Positions 13,400 to 45,026 of a stretch of DNA of 58,300 bases are shown in pieces. Source of the stretch: Thermoleophilia bacterium (GTDB lineage: Bacteria > Actinomycetota > Thermoleophilia > Gaiellales > Gaiellaceae); assembly GCA_009694305.1 (NCBI GenBank), contig SHVL01000011.1, positions 1 through 58,300 on the forward strand, given 5' to 3'. A program made the position numbers and the translations under genes. Each line of letters opens with the position of its first letter. Positions within the stretch are counted from its first letter, which is position 1. Under the pieces are notes generated by a model. That model made no database searches. It was not told where the DNA came from and saw only the letters and a list, made by a program, of their open reading frames with translations.

Positions 13400-13458
13400 C
13401 TGCAGCACCCCTGTTCGCACGAGGCAAAGTCCGTAGTCCTAAATCGTCAGGAGACTTG

Positions 13459-14457
13459 ATGAGGCGTATCGTTGTGCTGCTGGTAATACTCAGTGCCGCA
13501 GTGTTCGTCGGCACGGCCACCTCCGCCGGAGCAAAAGCGGGTGGAGCGCCGTTGCAGGTGCGGGTGATCACTGCGACCGCGACGACAGCCGGAACGTGGG
13601 ATCCGTCTCAGTTCGCGGCATACAGCGCAGTCTCCAAGCAGATGGGCTGGAAGCTGCAGATCGGTGAAGCCGTGCCGTACGGCGAGGCCGATCAGATGCT
13701 CGATCGCTGGGGTGCCGGCAAGGCCGACATCGTCTTCTCGACCGACAATGGCTTCGAAACTCACATGCTCGCTGCGGCAAAGAAGTACCCCGGCACCCTC
13801 TGGGTCACGATGTCGGACCTCTCGACCACGAATGGCCTTGCGAACGTCGCCGCGTACTCGGTGAACTGGTGCGAGGTTGGGTTCGTTGAGGGAGTTGCAG
13901 GGGCGCTCGTGAGCAAGACGCACATGATCAGCGCGGTCGAGTCGATCCCGATCCTGCCGACCTCAAAGACACTCGCGGGCATGAAGATCGGTGCAGAGGT
14001 TGCCGTTCCCGGCACCAAGGTCACCGGACAGATCGTGGGCGGCTTCGACGGCGGGCCATCCGCAGAGGTGGCTTCGAACCTCATCTCCAAGGGCGCTGAC
14101 GTTCTCTTCGCGGTTGCCACGGGTGGTGCCTCACCTGCGATCGCAGCACGGGCCCAGCAGCTCGGCAAGTTGTACGTCGGCTCCTACGGCGACGAGTCGA
14201 GGTTCGCGCCGAAAGCGACGGTAACAAGTGCCGTACTCAAGTTCGGACTTGGCTATGTGGCCGTGGCCAAGCAGCGGCAGAGTGGAACGTTCAAGCCGGG
14301 CATTATCCGCAAGGGCGTCGCGGACGGCTACATCAGCCTCACCGCGTTCCGCCTCGGCAAGACGGCGCAGGAAGCGCAGGCCGCGGCGATCCTGAAAAAC
14401 CTCGTGGCCGGCAAGTATGCAGCCCAGATGGCAAAGTGCCAGGCGGCGACGAAGTAG
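13459..14457 (+). CDS. BMP-family ABC transporter substrate-binding protein (copy 1)
   Basis: A 332-aa exported solute-binding protein of the basic membrane protein (PnrA/BMP) family, which binds nucleosides or related N-compounds. A signal peptide (MRRIVVLLVILSAAVFVG, then an Ala-rich cleavage region) is clear, with no lipobox Cys. The mature part has WDPSQFAAY, VFSTDNGFETHM, a C-V-G-F-type segment (NWCEVGFVEGVAG) and GSYGDESRFAPKATVTS near the C-terminus. Start ATG at 13459 follows AGGAG. The only BMP-type permease and ATPase genes are 36 kb away (50043-53615). A 17-bp hairpin terminator follows. The paralogue is at 35111-36121. Confidence 0.88.
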   Translation: MRRIVVLLVILSAAVFVGTATSAGAKAGGAPLQVRVITATATTAGTWDPSQFAAYSAVSKQMGWKLQIGEAVPYGEADQMLDRWGAGKADIVFSTDNGFETHMLAAAKKYPGTLWVTMSDLSTTNGLANVAAYSVNWCEVGFVEGVAGALVSKTHMISAVESIPILPTSKTLAGMKIGAEVAVPGTKVTGQIVGGFDGGPSAEVASNLISKGADVLFAVATGGASPAIAARAQQLGKLYVGSYGDESRFAPKATVTSAVLKFGLGYVAVAKQRQSGTFKPGIIRKGVADGYISLTAFRLGKTAQEAQAAAILKNLVAGKYAAQMAKCQAATK

Positions 14458-16780: not shown

Positions 16781-16806
16781 GAAGAAGGCTTGTGGAGAGG
16801 AGTTCG

Positions 16807-17493
16807 ATGAACGGCGGGCAGGACATGGGCGGCACGCACGGCTTCGGCCCAGTCGTGGTCGAGAAGGACGAAGCGGTCTTTCAGGCCGACTGGGAGCGCC
16901 GCATCTTCGGAACCCAGATCTGCACGCGGCTACGCGGGATCGACACCCTGGACGAGGTGCGGGAAGGGCTCGAGTCCATGAGCCCGGCCCAGTACCTGTC
17001 GGCGAGCTACTACGAGAAGTGGATCCTCGCCCTCGAACGGCTACTCGTGGAGAAGCAGGTGCTGACCGAGGATGAGCTACTCGCGCGGTACAGCGAGTTC
17101 GCCGCGAACCCCTCCGCCGACCTGCCGAGCCACCCCGAGCCGAGCTTCGTGGAGTTCGCCGACCGGGTCGTCAGGACCGGCGGATCGGCGAGCCGAGAAG
17201 TGGTGAAGCCGCCTAGCTTCCGCGCGGGAGACATCGTCATCACACGCAACGTCCACCCGTGCAGGCACACGCGGATGCCGCGCTACGTCCGTGGACGTAG
17301 GGGTGTCATCGAACGCGTCTACGACGCCTTTCTCCTCCCCGACCTGAACGTCACGGGCGTCGAGCAGCCGGAGTACGTCTACGCAGTCGCACTCGAGGGC
17401 CGGGAGCTCTGGGGAGAGTCGGCCGAGGCCCGGTCGCGCGTCTACATCGATCTCTGGGAGAGCTACCTCCTGCCAGGCGAGGAGGCCGCATGA
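16807..17493 (+). CDS. nthB: Nitrile hydratase beta subunit
   Basis: The 228-aa beta subunit of nitrile hydratase, which hydrates R-CN to R-CONH2. The N-terminus MNGGQDMGGTHGFGPV is the family hallmark, followed by WERRIFGTQI and SASYYEKWILALERLL. The C-terminal SH3-like barrel has FRAGDIVITRNVHPCRHTRMPRY written here only in part: GDIV...HTRMPRYVRG. The start is the ATG at 16807, 5 bases after GGAGAGGAG. Gene order beta-alpha-activator is the one usual for cobalt-type enzymes. It overlaps the alpha gene by ATGA. Confidence 0.95.
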   Translation: MNGGQDMGGTHGFGPVVVEKDEAVFQADWERRIFGTQICTRLRGIDTLDEVREGLESMSPAQYLSASYYEKWILALERLLVEKQVLTEDELLARYSEFAANPSADLPSHPEPSFVEFADRVVRTGGSASREVVKPPSFRAGDIVITRNVHPCRHTRMPRYVRGRRGVIERVYDAFLLPDLNVTGVEQPEYVYAVALEGRELWGESAEARSRVYIDLWESYLLPGEEAA

Positions 17494-18101
17494 GCGAGGT
17501 CGAACATGTCCAGCCTGGCCATCTTCTGAGCGAGCGTGAGGCGACGCTGCGAACCAGGGCCCTCGAGTCGCTGCTGCTCGAGAAAGGCGTCCTCGCGGAC
17601 GGTGCGGTCGACGCTGTCGCGGGTATCTACGAGAACGACGTCGGACCACTCATCGGCGCGAGGGTCATTGCGCACGCCTGGGTCGACCCGGCCTTCAAGG
17701 CGCGGCTACTTGCGGACGGGGGACGGGCGGTGAAAGAGCTCGGAATCACGGGCATCGAGGGCGACCACCTTGTCGTGCTGGAGAACACGCGAGACGTTCA
17801 CAACGTCGTCGTCTGCACCCTCTGCTCGTGCTATCCGTGGGCGCTGCTCGGCTTGCCGCCACGCTGGTACAAGAGCTACGCGTATCGGTCGCGGGTCGTG
17901 ATCGAACCACGGACCGTGCTCCGCGAGCTGGGCCTCGACGTGCCCGAGTCGGTCGAGATCCGGGTCTGGGATTCGAGCTCCGACATGCGCTACATGGTCC
18001 TGCCGGAACGACCAGCGAGAACCGAAGCGCTGGGGGAGGCCGAGCTCGCGGAACTTGTGACCCGCGAGGCGATGATCGGCATCGCTACCGTGTCAACTTG
18101 A
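17490..18101 (+). CDS. nthA: Nitrile hydratase alpha subunit, cobalt type
   Basis: The 203-aa metal-binding subunit. The claw-setting motif is C109-T-L-C112-S-C114 in VVCTLCSCYPW; Thr in the second place marks the non-corrin cobalt type (iron enzymes have Ser). The next block, LLGLPPRWYKS, and the following YRSRVVIEPR are standard. Two of the cysteines should be oxidised to sulfinate and sulfenate in the mature enzyme. Length is normal. It overlaps the beta gene and the activator gene by four bases each, so the three are translationally coupled. No cobalt permease is seen in the window. Confidence 0.95.
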   Translation: MSEVEHVQPGHLLSEREATLRTRALESLLLEKGVLADGAVDAVAGIYENDVGPLIGARVIAHAWVDPAFKARLLADGGRAVKELGITGIEGDHLVVLENTRDVHNVVVCTLCSCYPWALLGLPPRWYKSYAYRSRVVIEPRTVLRELGLDVPESVEIRVWDSSSDMRYMVLPERPARTEALGEAELAELVTREAMIGIATVST

Positions 18102-18478
18102 GCGGGCGGGCGATCGAGGGCGTCATCGCCGACATGGCCGGAAGCTCAGCCCTGCCGCGCCGCAATGGCGAGCTCGTCTTCTCCGCCCCATGGGAGAGCC
18201 GTGCCTTCGGCGTCGCGGTATCGCTCTGCCAGGAGGGAGTGTACGAGTGGGACGACTTTCGCAGCCTGCTGATCGACGAGATCGCTGCCCACGAGCCCGA
18301 AGACGGGGAGCACTACTACCAACGCTGGTTCGCATCGCTCGAACGCCTGTTGCTCGATCGGGAAGTCGTCACGGAGGCCGAGCTGACGGCGCGTTACGCC
18401 GAGTTCGAGGCCGACGTTGAGGCCGAGCATGGGCACGAGCACGAGCACGACCATACCGACGAGCGGCGCTCGACCTAG
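18098..18478 (+). CDS. Nitrile hydratase activator / cobalt subunit-swapping chaperone, His-rich tail
   Basis: A 126-aa beta-subunit-like accessory protein that in cobalt enzymes loads metal by swapping alpha subunits. ALPRRNGELVFSAPWESRAF and YYQRWFASLERLLL are the family blocks, and AELTARYAEFEADVE mirrors the beta-subunit helix. The start is taken as the TTG at 18098, giving a TTGA overlap with the alpha stop; the ATG at 18134 is the alternative and would trim 12 residues. The last 18 or so residues contain GHEHEHDH, a His/Glu/Asp tail that could hold cobalt. The tail is unusual for such a small activator. Confidence 0.88.
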   Translation: MSGRAIEGVIADMAGSSALPRRNGELVFSAPWESRAFGVAVSLCQEGVYEWDDFRSLLIDEIAAHEPEDGEHYYQRWFASLERLLLDREVVTEAELTARYAEFEADVEAEHGHEHEHDHTDERRST

Positions 18479-18504
18479 CGGATCGCGAACGGAGGAGACC
18501 CGAC

Positions 18505-20046
18505 GTGCTACGCAGGATCCAGCGAAGCGAGCTTCAGGCCTACGCGCGACAGGCGATGTTCACGATCAGCGACGACGAGCTGGACGAATTCCTCGAGCTG
18601 ACCGATCGCATGTGCGGGCTGATGGACGCGTTCGTCGACGAGCCGTTGCCCGCGCCCGTCAACATTGCGGCGCGACGCGACGTGGGCCGTCGACCGGAGG
18701 CTGGCGAGGACCCGCTCAACGCCGTCATCCGCTGGTGCTCCGTTAAGGCCGACGTCGAGGGGCCGCTCTCCGGCAAGCGCATCGGCCTCAAGGACAACAT
18801 GGCCCTGGCGGGCGTTCCGATGACGTACGCGTCTCGGATTCTCGGCGACTACGTGCCCGAGCAGGACTGCGTCCTCGCGGAGCGTGTCCTCCGGGCAGGC
18901 GGCGAGATCGTGGCGAAGCTGAACATGGATAGCTTCGCCTGGTCGGGTGGCGCCGAGACGAGCGACTTCGGGCCGACCCTCAACCCGTTCGACCCGACGC
19001 GGACGGCTTCCGGCTCGTCCGGTGGGTCGGCGGCCGCTCTCTTCTACGAGGGCATCGACATGACCTTCGGCACCGACCAGGCGGGATCGATCAGGCTGCC
19101 CGCGTCCTGGTGTGGCGTTCTCGGCCTCAAGCCGACGCACGGTCTCATCCCCTACACGGGCATATCGGCAATCGACCACACGTACGACCATGTCGGCCCG
19201 CTTGCACGCACCGTCGAAGAGCTTGCGCTCGTGCTCGCCGCGGTCGCCGGCAAGGACGAGTCCGACCCGCGCCAGCACGAGGTCGAGGTAGCCGACTACG
19301 TAGGAGCCGTCAGGGAGGCTCCCGACGATCTCAGGGGAATCACGATCGGTGTGCTCGTCGAAGGTTTCAGCCACGGCGGGCCGTCGGCGCCACCCGGGAC
19401 ACGGGAGAGTGCGGAGGCGACCCGCGCTGTGGTCGAAGAGCTGGGGCGGATAGGGGCAATGGTGCGTGAGGTCTCGGTCCCTGAGCATCTCTACGGCGCG
19501 GGCCTGATGTTCGCGGCGATCGCCGAGGGACAGACGGCGATGACGATGAGTTTCGGCAACGGCTACCATTGGCGTGGCCGCTACGCACCCGATCTCTCGG
19601 TCGCGCTCGGCCAGGGGCTGCGTTCGCGCGGCGACGAGCTGCCGCCCTCGCTGAAGATGGTGCTCCTGCTTGGCACCCACTTCCGCGAGCACTACTTCGG
19701 CTCGCTCTACGCGAAGGCGCAGAACATGACGCCAGCACTGCGTGAGGCCTACGACAGGGCACTCGCGGAGGTCGACGTGCTGGTGCTGCCGACGGCGACC
19801 CATTATGCGCACGTCTACAAGCCGGAAGCCTCCTTCTCGGAGCGAGTATTTCGCGGCGACTCGATGATCGGCAACACCGGCCCGTTCGACGCCACCGGGC
19901 ACCCGGCGCTCAGCATGCCTGCAGGCGAGGCCGACGGGCTCCCCGTAGGAGTCATGCTCGTCGGTCGGCACTTTGCCGACGCTCAGCTGCTCTCCTTCGC
20001 CCGAACGTACGAGCGCAGCCTGGGCTGGCGGCCGAGGCGCCAATAG
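18505..20046 (+). CDS. Amidase (amidase-signature family)
   Basis: A 513-aa amidase that would convert the amide from nitrile hydratase into acid and ammonia. The Ser-cisSer-Lys triad is complete: Lys in RIGLKDNMALAG (about 92), the cis-Ser in SGSSGGSAAAL and the nucleophile Ser in TDQAGSIRLPA (about 196). A helical N-terminal extension of about 90 residues matches Rhodococcus-type nitrile-pathway amidases. It starts with GTG at 18505 after GGAGGAG, 26 bases beyond the activator gene, so it belongs to the nitrile hydratase operon. Aliphatic amide specificity is inferred from context. Confidence 0.92.
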   Translation: MLRRIQRSELQAYARQAMFTISDDELDEFLELTDRMCGLMDAFVDEPLPAPVNIAARRDVGRRPEAGEDPLNAVIRWCSVKADVEGPLSGKRIGLKDNMALAGVPMTYASRILGDYVPEQDCVLAERVLRAGGEIVAKLNMDSFAWSGGAETSDFGPTLNPFDPTRTASGSSGGSAAALFYEGIDMTFGTDQAGSIRLPASWCGVLGLKPTHGLIPYTGISAIDHTYDHVGPLARTVEELALVLAAVAGKDESDPRQHEVEVADYVGAVREAPDDLRGITIGVLVEGFSHGGPSAPPGTRESAEATRAVVEELGRIGAMVREVSVPEHLYGAGLMFAAIAEGQTAMTMSFGNGYHWRGRYAPDLSVALGQGLRSRGDELPPSLKMVLLLGTHFREHYFGSLYAKAQNMTPALREAYDRALAEVDVLVLPTATHYAHVYKPEASFSERVFRGDSMIGNTGPFDATGHPALSMPAGEADGLPVGVMLVGRHFADAQLLSFARTYERSLGWRPRRQ

Positions 20047-23682: not shown

Positions 23683-25248
23683 ATGCAGAAGCAGATCTTC
23701 GCCATTGTCGGTATCGCTGCAGCCTTCGCGTTCGCCGCGACGAGTGTCAGCGCAGGCCAGACGCGAACGAACGCAGATACGTTGCGCATCGGTTTCCTTG
23801 GCTCCCTGAGCGGAGCCGGGTCGTCGCTCGGCCAGCCAAACCAGCTCGGCGCACTCGCGGCCATCAAGAGAATCAACGATGCGGGCGGAGTGAGCGGGAG
23901 ACTACTCGAACTCGTCTCTCGCGACACGAAGGGTGATCCGACCCTCGCGATCGATGTCGCTCGCGAGCTGAGTTCGGATTCGTCAATCCTCGCGATCTTC
24001 GGCCCAGACTTTTCGTCGAACGTGCGCGCAGCGCTACCTGTCTTGAACGCGGCAAAGATCGCATCGTACTGGAGCACGCCGGTTCTCACACCCGTGGCAG
24101 GCCGGGACAGCTTCGAGTTTGCCGGCTTCAATGCCCAGGAGGACACGTATCGCATCGGTCTTTCCTGGGCTGCACAGCGGAAGGGCATCAAGAAGATCGG
24201 CATTCTCGCCGCGAACGACACCACCGGCGAGGCGGGACTGGGTTCGCTGCGGAAAGTTGCCCCGGACTACGGGATTGAGATCGTCGCTGTTGAGCGATTC
24301 GACCTCACGGCGGTCGACGTGACGCCACAGATCCAGAAGATCGTGAGCGCTAGCGCTCAGCTGATGGCAACGGTCGTCACCGGATCGGCCTTCGGTGTCG
24401 TCCTGCGTGGCGTCAACCAGCTCGGCCTTCGCTACAAGCTGCCGATCTTCGGCTCCACCGGTACGTGCACTCTCGCTCTGAAGGACATTGTCAAGGGCGT
24501 CGAGCCGGGCCTCTATGTCTGCCCGACGCAGAAGGCACCCCTCTGGCAATCGCTGCCGGCAAACGACCCGCAGCTGCCCGAACTGACGAAACTCGCCGCG
24601 GCTATCGGGGGCGACAAGATCTCGATCAACTCCGCCCTCGGGTGGGACGTCATGCATCTGTACGCCCAGGCCATGACCCTGGCGGCAAAGGGCGGCTCGA
24701 TCACACGCCAGTCGATCCGCGATGCGCTCGCGTCCGGGACGATCAAGTTCAACGGAGCCGACAACAACTACCGCCTCACCGAGGCTGACCACCGAGGCAT
24801 CGCCTACTCCGACCTGGCACTCGTGCAGTCGACCAAGGAAGGCACAGTGCTGAAAGCGATCGCCACGGGTGAGTTCCGCTTGGTTTCGACTCCGTTCCTA
24901 GGTCCGGCGGGCTCGGCACCGCTTGGCAGCTTCGTCGCCTCCCTCGCGCGTACGGGCGGGTTCACCGAAGCACAGGGCGGAGATCTGAAGTGGACGCTAA
25001 CGTTCAAGGGCCTGACGGGAAGTGCCCTGACAGCCGAGTTGCGCGTCGGTACCGCTGCCGGCGCCGCCGGGCCGGTGCTCGTACCGTTGTGCAAGCCCTG
25101 CAAGGACGGCCAGTCGGGCACCACCAAGATACCCGGTAAGGCGGTGCTGCAACTCCTCAGCGGTGGTCGATCCCAGGTCTATGTGGCAATCAACACACAG
25201 ACCGCCCCGACCGGCGCGCTCCGCGGCCAGATAGTACTCGCGAAGTAG
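23683..25248 (+). CDS. Liv-type ABC substrate-binding protein fused to a C-terminal CHRD domain
   Basis: A 521-aa exported protein. Residues 1-26 are a signal peptide ending in SVSAGQ. Residues about 35-395 form a type I periplasmic-binding fold of the branched-chain amino acid/amide group (LRIGFLGSLSGAGSS, IFGPDFSSNVRAALPV, ILAANDTTGE). Residues about 397-521 are extra and match a CHRD domain: LKWTLTFKGLTGSALTAEL, AGPVLVPLC, a Gly/Thr turn, VYVAINTQTAPTGALRGQI. The usual AHIH of CHRD is replaced by AELR. A typical Liv-type binding protein lacks this domain. ATG at 23683 has GAGAGGAG upstream. It probably captures an amino acid, amide or aromatic ligand for LivHMGF. Confidence 0.85.
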   Translation: MQKQIFAIVGIAAAFAFAATSVSAGQTRTNADTLRIGFLGSLSGAGSSLGQPNQLGALAAIKRINDAGGVSGRLLELVSRDTKGDPTLAIDVARELSSDSSILAIFGPDFSSNVRAALPVLNAAKIASYWSTPVLTPVAGRDSFEFAGFNAQEDTYRIGLSWAAQRKGIKKIGILAANDTTGEAGLGSLRKVAPDYGIEIVAVERFDLTAVDVTPQIQKIVSASAQLMATVVTGSAFGVVLRGVNQLGLRYKLPIFGSTGTCTLALKDIVKGVEPGLYVCPTQKAPLWQSLPANDPQLPELTKLAAAIGGDKISINSALGWDVMHLYAQAMTLAAKGGSITRQSIRDALASGTIKFNGADNNYRLTEADHRGIAYSDLALVQSTKEGTVLKAIATGEFRLVSTPFLGPAGSAPLGSFVASLARTGGFTEAQGGDLKWTLTFKGLTGSALTAELRVGTAAGAAGPVLVPLCKPCKDGQSGTTKIPGKAVLQLLSGGRSQVYVAINTQTAPTGALRGQIVLAK

Positions 25249-25258
25249 TCATTCTCGT

Positions 25259-25290
25259 GCGGGCGGGGGCGTCCCTGAGCCCCCGCCCGC
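25259..25290. terminator. GC-rich hairpin between binding protein and LivH genes
   Basis: A perfect 12-bp stem, GCGGGCGGGGGC (25259-25270) with GCCCCCGCCCGC (25279-25290), closes an 8-base loop 10 bases after the stop codon. A partial terminator here would give more binding protein than membrane components, as is common in ABC importer operons. Confidence 0.7.
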
Positions 25291-25318: not shown

Positions 25319-26194
25319 ATGCACGAGTTCCTCACGATCATCGCTGGGGCATTGACCACGGGTGCGATCTACGCGCCAACAGCGCTTGCGCTGACCCTAG
25401 TGTTCAACGTCACCGGAATCTTGAACCTCGCGCAGGGCGAGTTCTACGTCATCGCACCCTTCGTCTCGCTCTACGTGATGAAGGCGTGGGGCCTGTCCGT
25501 GGGCTGGTCGTCTGTGATCGGCGTGATAACGGTCGTCGGCGTCGCCGGGCTGGTCTACCTCCTCGCCCTTGCGCCGCTGCGGAAGACGACGGAGGAGAAC
25601 CTCATCGTGATCACCCTCGCGCTCGCGTTCGTGCTCTCGGGCGCAGGCTTGCTCCTGTTCGGCCCAGATCCGCGCTTCGTGCCGACGTTCACCGGACTCG
25701 ACCCGATCAAGCTGCTCGGCGTCCCAGTGTCCAAGCAGTCGCTCTGGGTCGTCGGCGCGACCTTCGTTCTGCTCGTGGTGGTCTGGCTCTTCTTCATCCG
25801 GACGCGCTACGGAATCGCGATGCGCGCCGCCTCGGACAACTTGAAGGCCGCGCAGTACCTCGGGCTCGACGCTCGGAGGATGGGAATGCTGGCATTCATG
25901 ATGGGCGGCCTGCTCGGTGGGGTTTCGGGGGTCATCTCGACACCGCTCACGCTTCTCGACGTTGCGATGGGCCTCGGCATCCTGCTCAAGGCGTTCATCG
26001 CGGCCGTCATCGGTGGCTGGGGCAGCTATCTCGGCGCCGTGGTTGGGGCCTTCACGCTCGGGCTTGCCCAGGTCGTATCGGCCACATACCTGCCGACGCT
26101 GTACGGCGACGCCTTCACCCTCGGGCTGCTGCTCGTCATTCTCTTCTTGCGACCCTCCGGGATGATTCCCTCAAGGGTCGCGCGCACCGCGTGA
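25319..26194 (+). CDS. livH: Branched-chain-type ABC transporter permease LivH
   Basis: A 291-aa inner-membrane permease with about eight hydrophobic segments. GAIYAPTALALTLVFNVTGILNLAQGEF is the LivH start (only short parts matter: FNVTGILNLAQGEF). YGIAMRAASDNLKAAQYLGLD is the cytoplasmic coupling loop that meets the ATPase, and GLAQVVSATYLP is near the end. Length is normal. It overlaps the next gene by GTGA. It should pair with the LivM half of the following fused protein. Confidence 0.92.
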   Translation: MHEFLTIIAGALTTGAIYAPTALALTLVFNVTGILNLAQGEFYVIAPFVSLYVMKAWGLSVGWSSVIGVITVVGVAGLVYLLALAPLRKTTEENLIVITLALAFVLSGAGLLLFGPDPRFVPTFTGLDPIKLLGVPVSKQSLWVVGATFVLLVVVWLFFIRTRYGIAMRAASDNLKAAQYLGLDARRMGMLAFMMGGLLGGVSGVISTPLTLLDVAMGLGILLKAFIAAVIGGWGSYLGAVVGAFTLGLAQVVSATYLPTLYGDAFTLGLLLVILFLRPSGMIPSRVARTA

Positions 26195-28053
26195 GCACTA
26201 TGCGAGGGGTTTCTCTCCGCAGCAGGTCAGGGGTGCCGGGTGTCGTTCTGGGCCTGGTCGCCGGCGCGGCCGGCCTTGTGATCATCTATTACGAGACACG
26301 CGGTTCGTTCTGGATCTACCGCATGAACCTCGTCGCGATCTACGCGATCGTGATCATCGGCTGGAATCTGCTGCTCGGCCTCTCAGGGCAGTTCTCACTC
26401 GGCCAGGCCGCGTTCTTCGGCATCGCGGGCTACACGTCCGCTAGCCTGGCGTCCGACCACGGCGTCCCGGTCATGGTCGCTGTCCTCGCCGGGACGCTGG
26501 CCGCGGTGGTCATTGCCGCTGCCGTCGCCGTCCCGCTACTGCGCTTTCGCGGTCTCTACCTCGCACTCGTTACGCTCGCGCTCGCGGTCGTAACTCAGAG
26601 CATTGCCGTCGGGTGGAAATCGTTCACCGGCGGTACGTCGGGCCGCATCGGCATTCCGGGTTGGCACTTCTGGATCATCAACTCGCGCTCGACGACCTCG
26701 TCCTTCGTCTTTCTCTGGATCCTTGTCGGCATCGCGTGGATCAGCGCCCGGGCCATCCGGCGCTCGCCCTTCGGCAAGACTGTCATCGCACAACGCGAGG
26801 ATGAGACGCTCGCGAAGGCCCTTGGCCTTGCTGTCCCCAGGCTGCGCGCGAAGATCTTCCTCACAAGCGTCGTCTACGCCGGCATCTCGGGGGGGCTCTT
26901 CGCTCACTACCAGAACTTTCTCGACCCCTCCCAGGTGGGCATGTTTGCGTCGTTCGATATCGTCGTTGCCGGACTCGTCGGCGGTGCCTACATCCCGATC
27001 GGCGGAATCTTTGGCAGCTTCGTCCACGTTGTCCTGCCCGCGAGCCTTGGCGAGTACGCCGAGTGGCGCCCCTTGATCTTCGGTTGCCTGCTGCTGGCCG
27101 TGATGATGGTCTTCCCCGGCGGCATCGCCGGTGGCATGGCGAGGATCGTGTCGACTGTGACGCACTTGGCCACGGGCCGAGCCAAGGCTCGACCGGTGAT
27201 GCAGCAGACCACTGCAAGGGCGCCCCGGGAAGCGGCAGCACGCGAGCCCCTCGGCTCGGTTGCCGGAACGACGGTGTCGGAGCAGGAGACCGTGCTTAGC
27301 GCCGTCGACATCGCGCGACACTTCGGGGGTGTCTTTGCTGTGGATGGAGTCTCGCTAGAGGTGACGTCGCGCGAAGTGCTCGCCGTGATCGGGCCGAACG
27401 GAGCCGGTAAGACGACGCTATTCAACTTGCTCTGTGGGCTCGTGGCGCCCGACAGAGGGCTGGTCGAGGTGAACGGCACGAATACGACGGGGCTGCCCCC
27501 CTGGGAGATCGCGCGTCTGGGTCTCGCTCGCACGTTCCAGACACCACACGTCCTGGGGATGCTGTCGGTACGTGACAACGTTGCGCTCGGCGCGTACGGC
27601 AAGACGAGCGTCCGACTGACAGACGGGCTCCTCGGTCGCCAGCGGTTGCAGCGCGAAATCGAGCCGGAGGTTGTCCGGGCGGCTGAATTGTGCGGCGTCG
27701 TCGACTTTCTCGACCATCCGGCCAGCGAGCTCTCGCTCGTACAGCAACGGTTCGTCGAGCTCGCGCGTGCCCTGGCCTCCAACCCGCGCGTCATCCTCTG
27801 CGACGAATCGGGAGCCGGCCTCACTGATGCCGAGCTGAACAGGCTGGCGGATCTGCTGTTGACGATCAATCGATCGCTCGGGATCGCACTCGTCGTGGTC
27901 GATCACCGCATGTCACTGATCCTGGACATTGCCGACCGAGTCATCGTCCTCGACCAGGGGAAGCAGCTCGCCATGGGCACCGGCGACGAGATCGTAGAAA
28001 ACCCCGATGTCCTGGCGGTGTACCTCGGTAGCGACTTCGCGGTGAGCCGATGA
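26191..28053 (+). CDS. Fused LivM permease-LivG ATPase
   Basis: A single 620-aa polypeptide. Residues 1-310 are a LivM permease (GWNLLLGLSGQFSLGQAAFFG, coupling loop QREDETLAKALGL, GGIFGSFVHVVLP). Residues about 320-370 are an Ala/Arg-rich linker. Residues about 372-620 are a LivG ATPase with Walker A GPNGAGKTTL (about 401) and Walker B VILCDESGAGL (about 534). The ATPase has changes at normally fixed sites: the signature reads ELSLVQQR, with Val where Gly is expected, and Walker B has DES instead of DEP. The start is GTG at 26191, overlapping the livH stop; the ATG at 26200 is the alternative. The stop overlaps livF by ATGA. Confidence 0.88.
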   Translation: MSTMRGVSLRSRSGVPGVVLGLVAGAAGLVIIYYETRGSFWIYRMNLVAIYAIVIIGWNLLLGLSGQFSLGQAAFFGIAGYTSASLASDHGVPVMVAVLAGTLAAVVIAAAVAVPLLRFRGLYLALVTLALAVVTQSIAVGWKSFTGGTSGRIGIPGWHFWIINSRSTTSSFVFLWILVGIAWISARAIRRSPFGKTVIAQREDETLAKALGLAVPRLRAKIFLTSVVYAGISGGLFAHYQNFLDPSQVGMFASFDIVVAGLVGGAYIPIGGIFGSFVHVVLPASLGEYAEWRPLIFGCLLLAVMMVFPGGIAGGMARIVSTVTHLATGRAKARPVMQQTTARAPREAAAREPLGSVAGTTVSEQETVLSAVDIARHFGGVFAVDGVSLEVTSREVLAVIGPNGAGKTTLFNLLCGLVAPDRGLVEVNGTNTTGLPPWEIARLGLARTFQTPHVLGMLSVRDNVALGAYGKTSVRLTDGLLGRQRLQREIEPEVVRAAELCGVVDFLDHPASELSLVQQRFVELARALASNPRVILCDESGAGLTDAELNRLADLLLTINRSLGIALVVVDHRMSLILDIADRVIVLDQGKQLAMGTGDEIVENPDVLAVYLGSDFAVSR

Positions 28054-28811
28054 CGATCCTCAAGATCACGGACGTGGGGGCGCGGTATGGAGCGATCGAG
28101 GTTCTGCACGGCATCTCGCTCGAGGTCCGTGAGGGCGAGATCGTGTCTCTGATCGGGCCAAACGGCGCAGGAAAGTCCACCTTGATGAAGACCCTGATCG
28201 GTGCTCATAGCGCCAGCGCGGGCACCATCGAGTTCCTGGGCGAAGACATCACTCGGCTTGCCACAAAGCGCCGGGTGCGGCGCGGTCTTGCACTCGTGCC
28301 GGAGGGGCGCCAGATCTTTCCCACCCTGACGATCGCTAACAACCTGATGCTCGGCGCATACCCCCTGGGCCGTCGGTTCGACAAGCAGAGTGGTCAGCTG
28401 CTCGAGGAGATCTACGAGCTGTTCCCGATCTTGAAGGTGCGCCGCCGCGATACCGCAGGCAGTCTCTCGGGCGGGCAGCAGCAGATGCTCGCAATTGCCC
28501 GTGCGCTGATGGCGAATCCGAAGCTCATCCTGATCGACGAGCTGTCTCAAGGCCTCTCGCCATTGCTCGTCACGGAGATCTACGAGCGTCTGCTCAAGAT
28601 CGTGGCGGAGCGATCACTTGCCGCCTGTATCGTCGAGCAGGAGGTGAATCTCGCACTTCGGATCGCGAGCCGGGCGTACGTTTTGGCGAGCGGTCGCATC
28701 GTTCTCTCCGGGGCCGGGAAGGACCTGCTCGATGATCCGCAGGTGAAGAGCCTTTACCTCCGCGGACGCCCGTCGGCAGATCGCCCGGCGTCGAGTCAGG
28801 CGCCGATATGA
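28050..28811 (+). CDS. livF: Branched-chain-type ABC transporter ATPase LivF
   Basis: A 253-aa ATPase subunit. Walker A is GPNGAGKSTL (about residue 36), the Q-loop region PEGRQIFPTLT is typical of LivF, the signature SLSGGQQQML is intact, Walker B is LILIDELSQGL (DEL in place of DEP) and the switch region is VEQEVNLAL, in which Glu-Gln-Glu replaces the usual EQN with no His. It is coupled by ATGA to the fused gene before and to the 70-codon gene after. Since the LivG half has a damaged signature motif, this subunit may supply the only fully canonical signature in the heterodimer. Confidence 0.92.
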   Translation: MTILKITDVGARYGAIEVLHGISLEVREGEIVSLIGPNGAGKSTLMKTLIGAHSASAGTIEFLGEDITRLATKRRVRRGLALVPEGRQIFPTLTIANNLMLGAYPLGRRFDKQSGQLLEEIYELFPILKVRRRDTAGSLSGGQQQMLAIARALMANPKLILIDELSQGLSPLLVTEIYERLLKIVAERSLAACIVEQEVNLALRIASRAYVLASGRIVLSGAGKDLLDDPQVKSLYLRGRPSADRPASSQAPI

Positions 28812-29020
28812 GGTCGGCGCCTCTCACGGCCGGCCGGCCGGCCGGCCTCAACGAGGTGCTTGCCTTCGCCGCCGCTGAGGGGGACCCCGACGAGGTCGCC
28901 CGGGGTCAGCGTCCGATGTCGCCCGTCAGCAACTGGATTGCGTGGCCCGATCGCCTCGCCCACGTCAACCCGTCCACGTTGCCGGCCCTGCGTGAACCGG
29001 CGGCAGAGGGAATCGCGTGA
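28808..29020 (+). pseudogene. Truncated FAD-subunit (CoxM-type) remnant of a molybdenum hydroxylase, 70 codons, still coupled
   Basis: A 70-aa reading frame joined by ATGA to livF and by GTGA to coxS-type gene. It aligns with the start of CoxM-type FAD-binding subunits, including the intact one at 43169-44038. The pairs are LNEVLAFAAAEGD with LDEALSLLAEYGE, GQRPMSP with GQSLVPL, and WPDRLAHVNP with RPERLIDINR; GQ and P-D/E-R-L are 12 residues apart in both. The FAD loop AGGQS is changed to ARGQR and the other 220 residues are missing. The position is exactly where coxM stands in coxM-S-L operons. It cannot bind FAD; whether it is made, for example to keep translation coupled, is unknown. Confidence 0.6.
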
Positions 29021-29502
29021 CGCGGCGGATCGCGATCAAGGTAAACGGAAGCTGGTACGAAGGGGACGTTGAGCCGCGTCTTCTGCTCTCCGATTTCATC
29101 CGCGACGTCGCCGGCCTGACCGGTACACACGTCGGCTGCGAACATGGCGTCTGCGGGGCGTGCACCGTCCAGCTCGACGGCGCCCCAGTGCGTTCGTGTT
29201 TGCTGCTGTCCGTCCAGGCCGATGGCAGGGAGGTCACGACAGTTGAGGGGCTGCAGAACGCCGGCGGCGCACTGCATGTGCTGCAGCAAGCGTTTCGTGA
29301 GACGCACGCGCTGCAGTGCGGCTTCTGCTCGCCTGGGTTCCTGATGTCGCTCGAGCCCTTGCTGCGCGCCGACGGCCCGGCAGAGCTGACCGACGCCGCT
29401 ATTCGTGAGGCGCTCTCGGGCAACCTCTGCCGCTGTACCGGGTACCAGAACATCGTTGCGGCTGTGCAGCTTGCGCTGGCGCGTCGTCGGGGGGCAGCGT
29501 GA
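29017..29502 (+). CDS. Molybdenum hydroxylase small [2Fe-2S] subunit (CoxS/XdhC-type)
   Basis: A 161-aa iron-sulfur subunit of the xanthine oxidase family. The N-terminal plant-ferredoxin cluster is held by Cys in GCEHGVCGACTV plus the Cys of RSCLLL. The C-terminal helical domain holds the second cluster with CGFCSPGFLMS and LCRCTGYQNIV. Length is normal. It starts with GTG at 29017, overlapping the CoxM remnant, and its stop overlaps the large-subunit start by GTGA. It carries electrons from the molybdenum centre to an FAD subunit, which is missing locally and may come from 43169-44038. Confidence 0.93.
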   Translation: MTRRIAIKVNGSWYEGDVEPRLLLSDFIRDVAGLTGTHVGCEHGVCGACTVQLDGAPVRSCLLLSVQADGREVTTVEGLQNAGGALHVLQQAFRETHALQCGFCSPGFLMSLEPLLRADGPAELTDAAIREALSGNLCRCTGYQNIVAAVQLALARRRGAA

Positions 29503-31784
29503 CCAAGCAGGCCACCCCAACGTTAGCGGCGTCGCTGGTCGGGATGTCCGTGCTCCGGGTCGACGACATCCCGCTGCTTACAGGCGCCGGCGCCTACGTT
29601 GGCGATGTGAATCGACCGGGGCAGGTCTGGGCGCGGATCGTCCGCAGCGAGATCGCGCACGGTCGGCTCTTACGGGTCGACGTCGAGGCTGCTCGGCGGT
29701 CAGCGGGGGTCGTGGGCGTCTTCTCGGGCAGCGATACCCCCGACGTGCGGATCCCACTCCGACTCGAGTGGGCCGCGACGGAGGCGACACGCGCTGCGCT
29801 CCAGCCGCCGCTCGCCCGCGATCGCGTCCGCTACGTGGGAGAGCCCGTCGCAGTCATCGTGGCGACGTCGCAGTATGCGGCCGAAGACGCGGCCGAACTG
29901 GTCGTCGTCGAGATCGAGGAGCTTCCGCCGCTGGTCGAGACGCGCGCCGCTGCAGAGAATGCTCACACAGTGCTCCACCAGACGGTGGGCGGAAATATCG
30001 TGAATCGCCTCGTCTTCGGCTACGGCGATGCCGAGGCTGCAACCCGTTCGGCAGCCGTGGTCATACGGGAGAGGATGGACATCCACCGGCATACCGGCGT
30101 CCCACTCGAGACGCGTGGCCTCGTCGCCGAGTACGAGCCGGAGAGCGGTCGGCTCACGGTCTGGGGCCCGACGAAGGTCAAGCATTTCAACCGGTCGGCG
30201 CTCAGCGGCCTGCTCGACATCGACGAAGGCCGGATTCGCTATGTCGAGACAGATGTCGGAGGCGGCTTCGGCGTGCGCGGGGAGTTCTACCCCGAGGATT
30301 TCGTGATTCCGTGGCTCGCGATCAGGCTGGAACGGCCAGTCAAGTGGATCGAGGACCGCCACGAGCACTTCGTCGCGACTAACCACTCGCGCGAGCAGAG
30401 TCACGACATCGAGCTCGCGGTCGCCGAAGACGGACGCTTTCTCGCCCTGCGCGACCGCAATTGGATCGATCTCGGCGCCTACGTCCGGACACATGGCCTG
30501 ACGCTCCCCGTCTCGACTGCGTTGCACATGTCCGGCCCGTACGCCTGGCAGGCGCTTGAGATCGATAGCTCGGCCGTGATGACGAACAAGACGCCGTCGG
30601 GGACCTACCGGGGACCCGGCATCGTGGAGGCGACGTTCGTCCGTGAGCGCCTTATCGACCGGGCTGCGGCGGAGCTCGGCCTCGACCCCGCTGAGCTGCG
30701 GCGCCGGAACATGGTTCCCGTCGAGGCCTTGCCGCAGCGGATCGAGTTGGGTCACGGAGTGGTGCGTTTCCTCGACAGCGGCGATTTCCCCGACGCATGG
30801 GACACCTTCCTCGAACAGGCCGGCTACGACGACCTCTGCGCCGAGCGAGACGCAGCTCGCGTACGCGGTGAGCACGTCGGCGTTGGGCTCGCGGCATATG
30901 TCGAGCACGGCGCAGTGGGCCCGTACGAGCAGGCCCGCATCGTCCCGGAGCCCGGTGGGCACTTCGCTGTCAGCGTCGGCGTCTCTGGTGTTGGGCAAGG
31001 GGTACGGACAGTGCTGGCCCAGGTCGCGGCCCAGGAGCTCGGCGTTCCGCTCGAGGACGTGACAGTCAGCCATCACGACACCGACACGATCCCTGGTGGC
31101 TTTGGCGCGTTCGCGAGCCGCGGCACCGTTTTCGGAGGAAGCGCCATCATGCTCGCTGCGCGTGACCTGCACAAGCGCGCCGCCGCTGCCGCCGCGAGCC
31201 AGCTCGGTGTACCGGCGGACGAGGTCACGATCGAGGGCGCGAGGGCCTCGGCCAAGGGGCGGAGCGTACCTCTTCTCGAGTTGGGCTGTGCCGGCGAAGG
31301 GCGCTTCGAGAAGGCGACCACCGAGGCGTCGTTCGGAGCAAGCCTCGCGCTCGTTGCGCTCGACCCTGGCACCGGCAAGATCGATGTCCGGCGTTTCATC
31401 GTTGCCTACGATGTCGGGCGGGCCGTCAACCCTGAGCTCGTCATCGGGCAACTCGTCGGCGCCGCAGCTCAGGGGATCGCGGGCGCGTTGATGGAAGAGC
31501 TCCCGTTCGATGAGACCGGCCAACCACTGTGCACGTCGTTCGTCGACTACCTGATGCCAACAGCCGCCGATCTGCCGTACATCGACGCACTCATCCTCGA
31601 GTACCCCGCGCTCGGAAATCCGCTGGGCGCACGAGGCGCCGGCGAAGGCGGCATCGACGGCACGGGCGGGTCGATCGCGAATGCGGTCGCCGACGCGCTC
31701 GGAGCGGCAGGTGTCGAGGTCCGCGCGCTGCCGCTTCGCCCGGAGGATGTCAAGCGACTGATTCGGCTGGCGGCAGGTGAGTGA
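29499..31784 (+). CDS. Molybdenum hydroxylase large subunit (xanthine dehydrogenase/CoxL-like, not CO dehydrogenase)
   Basis: A 761-aa molybdopterin-binding catalytic subunit of the aldehyde/xanthine oxidase family, which hydroxylates a ring carbon next to nitrogen or an aldehyde. ETRGLVAEYE, GGGFGVRGEFYPED, GTYRGPGIVEATF (about residue 367), GVSGVGQGVRT and RGAGEGGIDGTGG with the catalytic Glu (about 709) are visible. The loop YRGPG lacks the Cys of form I CO dehydrogenase (AYxCSFR), so CO oxidation is unlikely. Length is close to normal. It starts with GTG at 29499. Being in the Liv operon suggests that the imported ligand is its substrate, as in purine or nicotinate hydroxylation (inference). 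Confidence 0.92.
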   Translation: MTKQATPTLAASLVGMSVLRVDDIPLLTGAGAYVGDVNRPGQVWARIVRSEIAHGRLLRVDVEAARRSAGVVGVFSGSDTPDVRIPLRLEWAATEATRAALQPPLARDRVRYVGEPVAVIVATSQYAAEDAAELVVVEIEELPPLVETRAAAENAHTVLHQTVGGNIVNRLVFGYGDAEAATRSAAVVIRERMDIHRHTGVPLETRGLVAEYEPESGRLTVWGPTKVKHFNRSALSGLLDIDEGRIRYVETDVGGGFGVRGEFYPEDFVIPWLAIRLERPVKWIEDRHEHFVATNHSREQSHDIELAVAEDGRFLALRDRNWIDLGAYVRTHGLTLPVSTALHMSGPYAWQALEIDSSAVMTNKTPSGTYRGPGIVEATFVRERLIDRAAAELGLDPAELRRRNMVPVEALPQRIELGHGVVRFLDSGDFPDAWDTFLEQAGYDDLCAERDAARVRGEHVGVGLAAYVEHGAVGPYEQARIVPEPGGHFAVSVGVSGVGQGVRTVLAQVAAQELGVPLEDVTVSHHDTDTIPGGFGAFASRGTVFGGSAIMLAARDLHKRAAAAAASQLGVPADEVTIEGARASAKGRSVPLLELGCAGEGRFEKATTEASFGASLALVALDPGTGKIDVRRFIVAYDVGRAVNPELVIGQLVGAAAQGIAGALMEELPFDETGQPLCTSFVDYLMPTAADLPYIDALILEYPALGNPLGARGAGEGGIDGTGGSIANAVADALGAAGVEVRALPLRPEDVKRLIRLAAGE

Positions 31785-35005: not shown

Positions 35006-35110
35006 TGCCTCAGGGATTCGGCGTGCAATAGAGTTTGTCGATAATCAGCACTCGGTCGACCGGGAGCGTTGCTCACGGCTGCCGAGAAACGCGAAAGGTG
35101 GGAAGGCTTC

Positions 35111-36121
35111 ATGGTGCTACGAAAATTCGCACGGCCGATCGTTGCGGCCGCTCTGGGGACGTTGCTCATGGCGACCCTCGGTATTATGGTCGGGAGCGCG
35201 AGTGCAAAGTCCGATGCTGCACCGGTGACGGTTCGCGTGATCACCGCGACCCCGACGACTGCGGGAATCTGGGACCCGACGCACAAGGCGGCCTATGCCG
35301 GAGTCGCGAAACAGAACAACTGGAAGCTCGTGATCGCCGAAACGATCCCCTACGGCAGCGCGGCGCAGGTCCTCAACCGTTGGGGCGACGAAAAGGTCAA
35401 CGTGGTCATCTCGACCGACTCAGGCTTCTCGTCGAGCTTCGTTCCCGCGGCACGCAAATACCCCAACACACTCTGGGTGCTGATGGGCCAGCCGTCTGGT
35501 GAGTGGAAGGATCTGAAGAACTTCGCCGCCTTGACCTACGATCAGTGCGGCTTCGGCTTTGCGCAGGGCGTCATCGCTGCCCTCCTGAGCAGGTCGCACA
35601 ACGTCGCCTACGTCGGAGCCATCCCGATCCTGCCGGCCCTGAACGTGCTCAAGGCAGCGAAGTACGGCGCCTCCGTCGCCGTGCCCGGCACGAAGGTCAG
35701 CGTTCAGTACACGGGCGGCTTCACCGATTCGCAGAAGTCCCAGGAGGTCGCATCGACGCTCATCGCCGGTGGCGCGGACGTCATCCTCGCGTTGACGAAC
35801 GGTGGCGTCTCGGGCTCGATTGCAGGGCGCGTGCAGCAGCTTGGCAAGACCTACATCGGTTCGTACGGGGACGAGTCGAAGTTTGCTCCGAAAGCGACCG
35901 TGACCAGCGTCGCAGCGAACCTCTCCGACGCCTACGGAACGATTGCGCAGCAGGTGGCTTCCGGCACGTTCAAGCCAGGCCTGTTCGTGACGGGGATCAA
36001 GCAGAACGGGATCCTTATCTACCCCTTCGCGCCCGGAAACGAGGCGACGGCGGCGCAGGTGAAGTCGATCATGGCGAAGTACGTGGCGGGGAAGTACGCC
36101 GTCCCGAACTGCAGCACGTAG
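35111..36121 (+). CDS. BMP-family ABC transporter substrate-binding protein (copy 2)
   Basis: A 336-aa exported binding protein, paralogous to 13459-14457. The signal peptide has a basic start (VLRKFARP), a hydrophobic core and an SASAKS cleavage region. VRVITATPTTAGIWDPTHKAAY, STDSGFSSSF and GSYGDESKFAPKATVTSV match copy 1 closely. The ATG at 35111 follows GGGAAGG; the frame is open from 35069 but without a signal-peptide pattern. The 205-base gap upstream holds a hairpin but no clear promoter. Ligands of this family are mostly nucleosides, but relatives bind other N-compounds, so the ligand is open. Confidence 0.88.
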   Translation: MVLRKFARPIVAAALGTLLMATLGIMVGSASAKSDAAPVTVRVITATPTTAGIWDPTHKAAYAGVAKQNNWKLVIAETIPYGSAAQVLNRWGDEKVNVVISTDSGFSSSFVPAARKYPNTLWVLMGQPSGEWKDLKNFAALTYDQCGFGFAQGVIAALLSRSHNVAYVGAIPILPALNVLKAAKYGASVAVPGTKVSVQYTGGFTDSQKSQEVASTLIAGGADVILALTNGGVSGSIAGRVQQLGKTYIGSYGDESKFAPKATVTSVAANLSDAYGTIAQQVASGTFKPGLFVTGIKQNGILIYPFAPGNEATAAQVKSIMAKYVAGKYAVPNCST

Positions 36122-43168: not shown

Positions 43169-44038
43169 TCAGGGCCCGATCGTCGTCGCTGCCTCGAGGA
43201 GCGCGCGCTTCACCATCTCCTGCACAAGCCCGCGTCGGAATTCGCTGCCCCCGTGGGTGTCGCCCGACGGATGGATGTCGGCAACGCACCGCTCCGCGGC
43301 CTCGACTCGAGTCGCCGTGTCTAGCCGGCGGCCCACGAGCCACTGCTCGACCTCCACTCGACGCAGCGGCACGGAGCCGGCGGAGAGGAGAGCGATCGCA
43401 ATCTGCGTGCAGGTTCCGGTGGGTCCGATCTGGGCGACCACGGCCGCACCGCCCAGTGCGAAATCGCCATGCCTCCGAGCGAACTCGACGAACGCCGATC
43501 GAGTCCCGAACACGGGCACAGGCACCTCGATCTCAACGAGTAGCTCGTCCGGTCGCAGCGCAGTGGTCAGATGGGTTTTGAACAGCTCGTCCGCCGTGAA
43601 TGAGCGCACACCGGCTGTCGAGCGGGCATGGAAGCGAGCGCCGAGCGCTGCAAACGCGACCGGCAACTCCGCGGCCGGATCCGCGTGAGCGACCGACCCG
43701 CCCACCGTGCCACGATTACGAATCTGGGGATGTCCGACGAAGCTAACGGCCTGTGCAAGGAGTCTCACCCGGTGCGCTACCTCGACGGATCGCTCGAGGG
43801 TTGACTGCCTCGTGAGTGCGCCGATGCGCAAACTACCGTTCTCGAACCGGAGATAGTCTAACTCCGTGATGCGGTTGATGTCGATCAGACGCTCGGGGCG
43901 CGCCAAGCGGAAGTTCAGCAGCGGTACGAGGCTCTGCCCACCCGCGAGCACCTTCGCGTCCTCGCCGTACTCGGCGAGGAGCGACAGGGCCTCGTCCAGC
44001 GACTTAGGATCGTCGTACTCGAACGGTGTCGGCTTCAC
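43169..44038 (-). CDS. Molybdenum hydroxylase FAD-binding subunit (CoxM-type), isolated
   Basis: A 289-aa FAD subunit of the xanthine dehydrogenase/CO dehydrogenase family. The FAD loops are intact: VLAGGQSLVPLLNFRLARP (about 31-49) and IRNRGTVGGSVAHADPAAE (about 97-115). The C-terminal CO-dehydrogenase-flavoprotein domain is complete. The start is GTG at 44038 after AAAGGAGG, giving VKPTPFEYDDP. Such genes normally sit beside small and large subunit genes, but none is here. The only small and large subunit genes lie 11-15 kb away at 29017-31784, where the local FAD gene is a 70-codon remnant. It probably completes that enzyme in trans. Confidence 0.92.
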   Translation of the reverse strand: MKPTPFEYDDPKSLDEALSLLAEYGEDAKVLAGGQSLVPLLNFRLARPERLIDINRITELDYLRFENGSLRIGALTRQSTLERSVEVAHRVRLLAQAVSFVGHPQIRNRGTVGGSVAHADPAAELPVAFAALGARFHARSTAGVRSFTADELFKTHLTTALRPDELLVEIEVPVPVFGTRSAFVEFARRHGDFALGGAAVVAQIGPTGTCTQIAIALLSAGSVPLRRVEVEQWLVGRRLDTATRVEAAERCVADIHPSGDTHGGSEFRRGLVQEMVKRALLEAATTIGP

Positions 44039-44162
44039 GAATGGCCTCCTTTCACTAGAGCGTCGCACTGACCACCGCGTCCACAGGGATTGCTGCACGG
44101 GGCCCACAGACAGCGGCAGGGAGTACGTGCGCGTCGCCGCGACTCTGGCGGGGTCAACGAGG

Positions 44163-45026
44163 TCAGGAGGTCGCGGCCGCAGCAGGCGAGCTGATGCCGT
44201 ATTGCGCGAACGCCTCCTCGCCCCCATGCTGCGGCAGCGTCAGCCATGACCCGCGCTCGAGGTACGTGCGGCAGAACTCCTCGCCTCCTTCACAGTGGCG
44301 CTGGATCAGATCGAGCGGCCGATTGGAGTGCACGAGCGCGAGAGCGCCGTCGCGCGTCGCAACGGGTGCATGCCACGACTCACCCGGATTCCCGAGGAAG
44401 CTTCCAGGCACGATGATTCCGCGCTCGGCAACCCAGTCGCCTTGCAGGAAGATCAGCTCCTCCCACGTTGAATGGAGGTGCTCCATCGGCGCGATGAATC
44501 CGGGCTGCCACTGCATCACCCGAAGCAGGCCGGCGGCACTGCCGTGGGCGCCCTCGACGAAATCCGGGAGACGGAGCGACTTCCACCGCTGCGGCAGCTT
44601 GCGATCGAGCAGCCCCTCCTGCCACGGCTCGTCCCAAAAGCTCATGACGCGAACATCGTCCTGTCCGCTGATCTCCATACCGGGCGTCAGGAAGAGGTAC
44701 ATCTGCACGTCCTCGCAGGCGACAAGGCGCTCTGCGCCCTTACCGTGAGGCAGGAAGGCATAGCTGCCAACACCCAATGAGCGGCCGTCGAGCGAGAGCG
44801 AACCCTCGACGACGAAGAGTTCGGCCGTGATGTCGCTCTCGCCGGGGCTCCCACGCCAGCCCGCAGGGATGCGGATCATCGACGTCGAGGCGCCAGTCGT
44901 CGCATCTTCGCTGATCAGCCGCTGATCGAGCCCGGAGACGATGTCCCGCTCCGGCGCCGTTCGCCAGGGAAGGTCGAAGACGCTGAAGAAACCGGGGTTG
45001 TTGTCACGCTTCCAGTGGCCTGTCAT
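44163..45026 (-). CDS. Bicupin-domain protein (copy 2)
   Basis: A 287-aa paralogue of the bicupin at 15746-16597. The first barrel has ELFVVEGSLSLDGRSLGVG and the second HLHSTWEELIFLQGDW (His-x-His and Glu-Glu, suited to metal binding) and ESWHAPVATRDGALALVHSN. DEPWQEG and FFSVFDLPW are also shared with copy 1. No signal peptide. The ATG at 45026 follows GAAGGGAG; the frame runs upstream to 45056. It lies before the isolated FAD subunit gene on the same strand, 124 bases away. Function is unknown. Confidence 0.72.
   Translation of the reverse strand: MTGHWKRDNNPGFFSVFDLPWRTAPERDIVSGLDQRLISEDATTGASTSMIRIPAGWRGSPGESDITAELFVVEGSLSLDGRSLGVGSYAFLPHGKGAERLVACEDVQMYLFLTPGMEISGQDDVRVMSFWDEPWQEGLLDRKLPQRWKSLRLPDFVEGAHGSAAGLLRVMQWQPGFIAPMEHLHSTWEELIFLQGDWVAERGIIVPGSFLGNPGESWHAPVATRDGALALVHSNRPLDLIQRHCEGGEEFCRTYLERGSWLTLPQHGGEEAFAQYGISSPAAAATS

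Follow-up and report, generated by a model that had tools for sequence, protein, structure and literature searches.

The open reading frame of 521 amino acids at positions 23683-25248 (plus strand) of the window, the 58,300-nucleotide stretch of an actinobacterial contig that was analysed here, encodes a Liv-type solute-binding protein (SBP) followed by a C-terminal CHRD domain. Judged from its sequence, the protein represents a new domain architecture made of two known families, of which one instance has been found. As an intact LivH-LivMG-LivF operon starts with this gene, the protein is most likely the receptor of an importer and not the product of an assembly chimera. As a best guess, tentatively held, a normal importer receptor has been equipped with a non-catalytic tail for docking or oligomerisation.

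The receptor and its genomic neighbourhood

The ATG start codon of the gene is closely preceded by GAGAGGAG, which resembles a ribosome-binding site. A signal peptide and a Liv-type binding fold had been claimed in the first-pass annotation, and both are present, with residues 1-24 forming an export signal without lipobox and residues 33-385 matching Peripla_BP_6 of Pfam well over the gathering cut-off (160.4 bits versus 31.7; E 1.3e-46) along profile positions 1-340 of 343. Equally, the SBP half scores 350 bits against our own SBP profile, the NCBIfam matches of the protein are to binding-protein families only and its SBP half has relatives in the PDB (7YLT, 4NQR, 3SG0). With the Liv-type (HAAT family) binding proteins, the protein thus shares the signal peptide, the full Peripla_BP_6 match and the downstream LivH, LivM, LivG and LivF genes, the export signal and the adjoining permease and ATPase genes being in place as in other members. 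On the other hand, it is distant from the other Liv-type binding proteins (best identity about 28%, too low to indicate the ligand), carries the additional C-terminal domain and lacks a lipobox. Two PnrA/Bmp-type binding proteins encoded in the window (13456-14457 and 35069-36121) are without lipobox as well, as are many binding proteins of the host group, which raises the question of their retention. The coordinates of the gene, its parts and the Liv genes are compiled in Table 1.

Table 1. Features of the receptor gene and the adjoining Liv genes, with positions in the window
Feature	Position	Strand	Evidence
SBP-CHRD fusion gene, 521 aa	23683..25248	+	ORF and Pfam
Signal peptide, residues 1-24, likely cleavage after VSA, without lipobox Cys	23683..23754	+	Sequence; hydrophobic peak
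Liv-type solute-binding protein, residues ~30-395	23770..24867	+	Peripla_BP_6 33-385; own SBP profile; PDB relatives
CHRD / SOD-like tail, residues ~396-521	24868..25245	+	Pfam 429-517; family profile; AF2; SOD structural matches
E452 and R454, replacing both His of AHIH	25036..25044	+	Comparison with 81 CHRDs
CKPC (C470, C473), Cys pair conserved in VPLCxPC subgroup	25090..25101	+	CHRD alignment
N504, replacing His of NVHT	25192..25194	+	Comparison with 81 CHRDs
12-bp G+C hairpin between receptor gene and livH, perfect, no T-run seen	25259..25290	+	z -5.9
LivH-type permease	25319..26194	+	BPD_transp_2, E 1e-34
LivM permease and LivG ATPase in a single ORF	25486..28053	+	BPD_transp_2 280-542, ABC_tran 620-774 of 855
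LivF-type ATPase	28050..28811	+	Domain and family matches

The livH gene starts 70 bases past the stop codon of the receptor gene behind the strong hairpin, which perhaps acts in mRNA stabilisation or attenuation and would allow an excess of receptor over permease. LivM permease and LivG ATPase share one reading frame (25486-28053) as a natural fusion, the true start of which is probably located near 26.2 kb, after livH. Upstream of the receptor gene, nitrile hydratase beta and alpha genes, the latter with a CTLCSC motif, are followed by an amidase gene (16792-20046), with a small intervening open reading frame that resembles a nitrile hydratase-like accessory protein. Downstream of the Liv genes, the 2Fe-2S and molybdenum-binding subunits of a member of the xanthine/CO dehydrogenase superfamily constitute a molybdenum hydroxylase gene pair (29017-31784), followed by genes for an aldo-keto reductase and amidohydrolases. 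As a guess from this gene neighbourhood, the imported solute could plausibly be an acid derived from a nitrile, an amide or an N-heterocycle. Apart from the molybdenum hydroxylase pair, a FAD-subunit-like gene is found at 43169-44227 on the minus strand.

Identity and predicted fold of the tail

The first-pass annotation had assigned about 125 extra residues behind the binding fold to a CHRD domain on the basis of the motifs TLTFKGLTGS, AGPVLVPL and YVAINTQTAPTGALRGQI, all of which are present in the tail. The match to the CHRD family PF07452 of Pfam at residues 429-517 is significant (40.4 bits versus a gathering cut-off of 24.1; E 6e-10), a whole-genome CHRD search of the host again retrieves the tail (43.4 bits), and the structural comparison described below delimits the domain to about 126 residues (396-521). 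Because the Pfam score is modest, a second profile was built from 19 CHRDs of related genomes, with the SBP-CHRD protein itself excluded, against which the tail scores 81 bits (E 2e-23; about residues 415-518). In light of the Pfam score and this independent profile score, the CHRD match has not arisen by chance.

Comparison of 81 CHRD segments bore out the claim that the usual AHIH motif has been lost as AELR and showed, as a finding absent from that earlier annotation, that the third conserved histidine is equally gone, with NVHT changed to AINT. While 75 of the 81 segments possess all three histidines, the tail displays E452, R454 and N504 instead and thus lacks residues that are usual for bacterial-type CHRDs, though not required by Pfam. 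Retained in the tail are the hydrophobic core motifs, the CKPC cysteine pair of the local CHRD subgroup, the GxLRGQ end and an open frame. In a tree of Cys-type CHRDs, the tail forms the longest branch (2.4-2.7 versus a median of 0.34). It is basic with a pI of 10.0, a charge ordinary among CHRDs, 30 of 75 being equally positive. A separate case of a CHRD with all three histidines lost (ARLR, NIYT) was observed behind Ig-like repeats in locus L053 (minus strand; CHRD residues 356-472 of a 474-aa frame).

In the host genome (2.47 Mb in 98 contigs) the tail is the sole CHRD, while CHRDs occur in 67 of the 103 genomes of the host family, mostly as small secreted proteins, and in several genomes of the host genus. 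Among those small secreted proteins, the 'VPLCxPC' CHRDs common in the host family are the nearest relatives of the tail. With standalone members of this subgroup (L063, L017, L029) the tail shares 44-47% identity over the best stretch, the cysteine pair and the GLTG and RGQ motifs, but differs from these proteins in lacking both a signal peptide of its own and the AHIH/NVHT histidines. Within the family, by contrast, close relatives are lacking for the receptor half (best identity 28%) and for LivH (best 33-35%). A CHRD tail of the local type therefore seems to have been acquired by a receptor of uncertain origin, a direction and timing that we infer from these sequence comparisons.

Structural prediction by AlphaFold2 (AF2) with residues 385-521 and an alignment of 37 CHRDs as input resulted in a model (pLDDT 81, pTM 0.77) composed entirely of strands except for one short helix. 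In a full-length prediction, most blocks of the tail from residue 411 onwards were above or near 90 pLDDT, while the SBP half, predicted without alignment rows, was modelled poorly and gave no readable inter-domain arrangement. The tail thus emerges from the prediction as a domain of its own outside the binding lobes and not as a part of them. Foldseek gave no match to the tail model under E 0.001, and the structural assignment to superoxide dismutases (SODs) comes from a second aligner, in which 50 of the 50 matches listed are SODs (best Z about 10, rmsd 2.7, 107 residues), chordin structures being absent among these 50. The alignment with SODs begins at model residue 12, corresponding to residue 396 of the protein, and the tail is accordingly predicted by the model to fold as an independent Cu/Zn-SOD-like Greek-key barrel right after the last strand of the SBP.

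Copper in SODs is bound by an HxH pair and a later histidine. From the fold and the order of the motifs we infer that the AHIH and NVHT positions of CHRDs correspond to these copper ligands; when the CHRD profile was compared with that of a bacterial Cu SOD, HIH was aligned on HVH at a non-significant E of 0.21. While the predicted tail fold is common to Cu/Zn and Cu-only SODs (Z about 10 over 107 residues), the tail differs in the copper-ligand histidines, which are not conserved, and in the lack of significant sequence similarity to the bacterial Cu SOD. SOD activity of the tail was rejected in view of the three lost histidines. The model agrees, on the other hand, with the crystal structure of the chordin CHRDs, which has been described as SOD-like (PMC13382577), and the family-CHRD profile matches human chordin structure entries (E 6e-5). 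Chordin CHRDs (PDB 9RD6; PMC13382577) have in common with the tail the Pfam family, the SOD-like Greek-key barrel, a metal site that is not conserved and export, but are arranged as four tandem CHRDs in an animal growth-factor antagonist.

Putative roles of the tail

From the operon, a receptor function of the protein in import is almost certain. In the proposed mechanism, the binding lobes would bind a small organic solute and pass it on to LivHM in the usual way. The tail would derive from a CHRD sequence that was fused, without its signal peptide, onto the receptor gene and, after fusion, would have lost the three-histidine site and diverged fast, so that with this loss the tail would no longer be an enzyme or a metal site. 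As a sticky fold-only module, the tail might hold the receptor at the envelope, in contact with a polymer of the wall or with a protein partner, or might oligomerise the receptor. The sequence does not discriminate between anchoring, oligomerisation and holding of the ligand, the three roles suggested in the first-pass annotation. A docking role is favoured because chordin CHRDs, catalytically dead SOD folds, bind heparan sulfate (PMC13382577), because bacterial CHRD proteins have been found as spore-surface proteins (PMC5335551) and beside CWB2 domains, and because the tail is basic; it is weakened by the charge of the tail being ordinary for CHRDs. Several Liv-type binding proteins of the host genome and family possess neither lipobox nor CHRD, which means that a CHRD is not required for retention. 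The narrower idea of the tail as an anchor that replaces the lipobox is weakened by the many family relatives of this kind.

The main rival explanation, which we consider doubtful, regards the tail as a tolerated relic of the fusion that folds and does no harm to the receptor, but has no selected function. Such a relic would be in line with the occurrence of one instance in the genomes searched, with the loss of all three conserved histidines and with other receptor relatives that manage without a CHRD, and the longest branch in the CHRD tree fits a loss of constraint too. However, the core motifs, the cysteine pair, the GxLRGQ end and the open frame have been kept and the AF2 model is confident, which indicates that the fold is still constrained or that the fusion is young; equally, in its codon-position G+C content the tail resembles normal coding DNA.

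Alternatively, though this is unlikely, the tail might serve as a second ligand or metal module, which by means of CKPC or new surface residues passes the solute or a metal on to the receptor or modulates how the receptor docks to LivHM. The cysteine pair has been retained despite the loss of the histidine triad, but the standalone subgroup shares it, and it may be no more than a disulfide. A CHRD that starts from about residue 396, directly behind the binding domain, would sit near the lobes, although no ligand site is readable from the AF2 model. Furthermore, a metal theme can be recognized in other actinobacterial proteins that combine CHRD and cupredoxin, while the operon at hand has molybdenum hydroxylase genes and nothing obvious for copper.

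Integrity, singularity and meaning of the fusion

A precedent for one open reading frame that is read as two proteins exists in Saro_1194 of Novosphingobium, a predicted fusion that likewise ends in a CHRD and turned out to be two proteins (PMC3608174), and an in-frame GTG at codon 389 of the SBP-CHRD gene is preceded by AAGGAAGG. In Saro_1194, however, a second signal peptide splits the open reading frame, whereas the segment before the CHRD lacks a hydrophobic signal in the SBP-CHRD gene (peak hydropathy 1.3 versus a median of 2.5 before other CHRDs). The tail can therefore be exported only together with the receptor, and a separately started tail would, unlike the usual CHRD, remain cytoplasmic. 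With neither a stop codon nor a frame change between the domains, we regard the two-protein reading as very improbable. An assembly chimera of a binding-protein gene and a CHRD gene might be suspected from the draft status of the assembly in 98 contigs and the uniqueness of the fusion, but is unlikely to the point of being hardly credible, as receptor, tail and livH lie on one contig in operon order and spacing, the tail alone would have to be inserted in frame between receptor gene and livH, the G+C content by codon position shows a normal coding pattern through the tail and is continuous across the gene, and no further CHRD exists in the host genome that the assembly might have misplaced.

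The first-pass annotation knew of no importer binding protein with a CHRD. In agreement, CHRD searches in the host family, class and phylum and in a sample of another phylum, covering about 1,000 different genomes, found no second binding-protein/CHRD fusion in the CHRD frames inspected among the matches listed, which for the class-wide search do not include the weakest ones. Of the long CHRD frames fetched from the matches listed and tested with the binding-protein profile, the SBP-CHRD gene alone has both domains; the others contain tandem CHRDs, cupredoxin-CWB2-CHRD, DUF4394-CWB2-CHRD, Ig-like repeats or no recognised domain. The combination of cupredoxin, the cell-wall-binding CWB2 and CHRD in the actinobacterial loci L118, L119 and L120 is an unremarked architecture in its own right and hints at a copper/cell-wall theme. 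A search with the whole SBP-CHRD protein in 84,980 genomes gave no related locus, and a CHRD-alignment search in 84,980 genomes gave 32 CHRD loci, none with a binding protein, by a pattern (YVNVHTx[KT]N) that needs the histidine motif and would miss degenerate tails. Plasmid matches by tblastn were to the binding-protein part only, none covering 80%, no match occurred in the viral contigs searched, and a literature search did not find a CHRD together with a substrate-binding protein.

By analogy with chordin and heparan sulfate, it might be speculated, as an unlikely generalisation, that ABC-importer receptors can acquire CHRDs as docking modules that act by their fold alone, with a dead SOD-like barrel tying the non-lipidated receptor of a monoderm to its envelope. 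Bacterial CHRDs are widespread and functionally obscure, and their fusion to a well-understood receptor gives a testable handle. If the tail docks the receptor, bacteria that lack an outer membrane would have an alternative to holding their binding proteins by a lipid anchor, and there would, equally, be a parallel to chordin, where a metal-free CHRD fold binds glycans.
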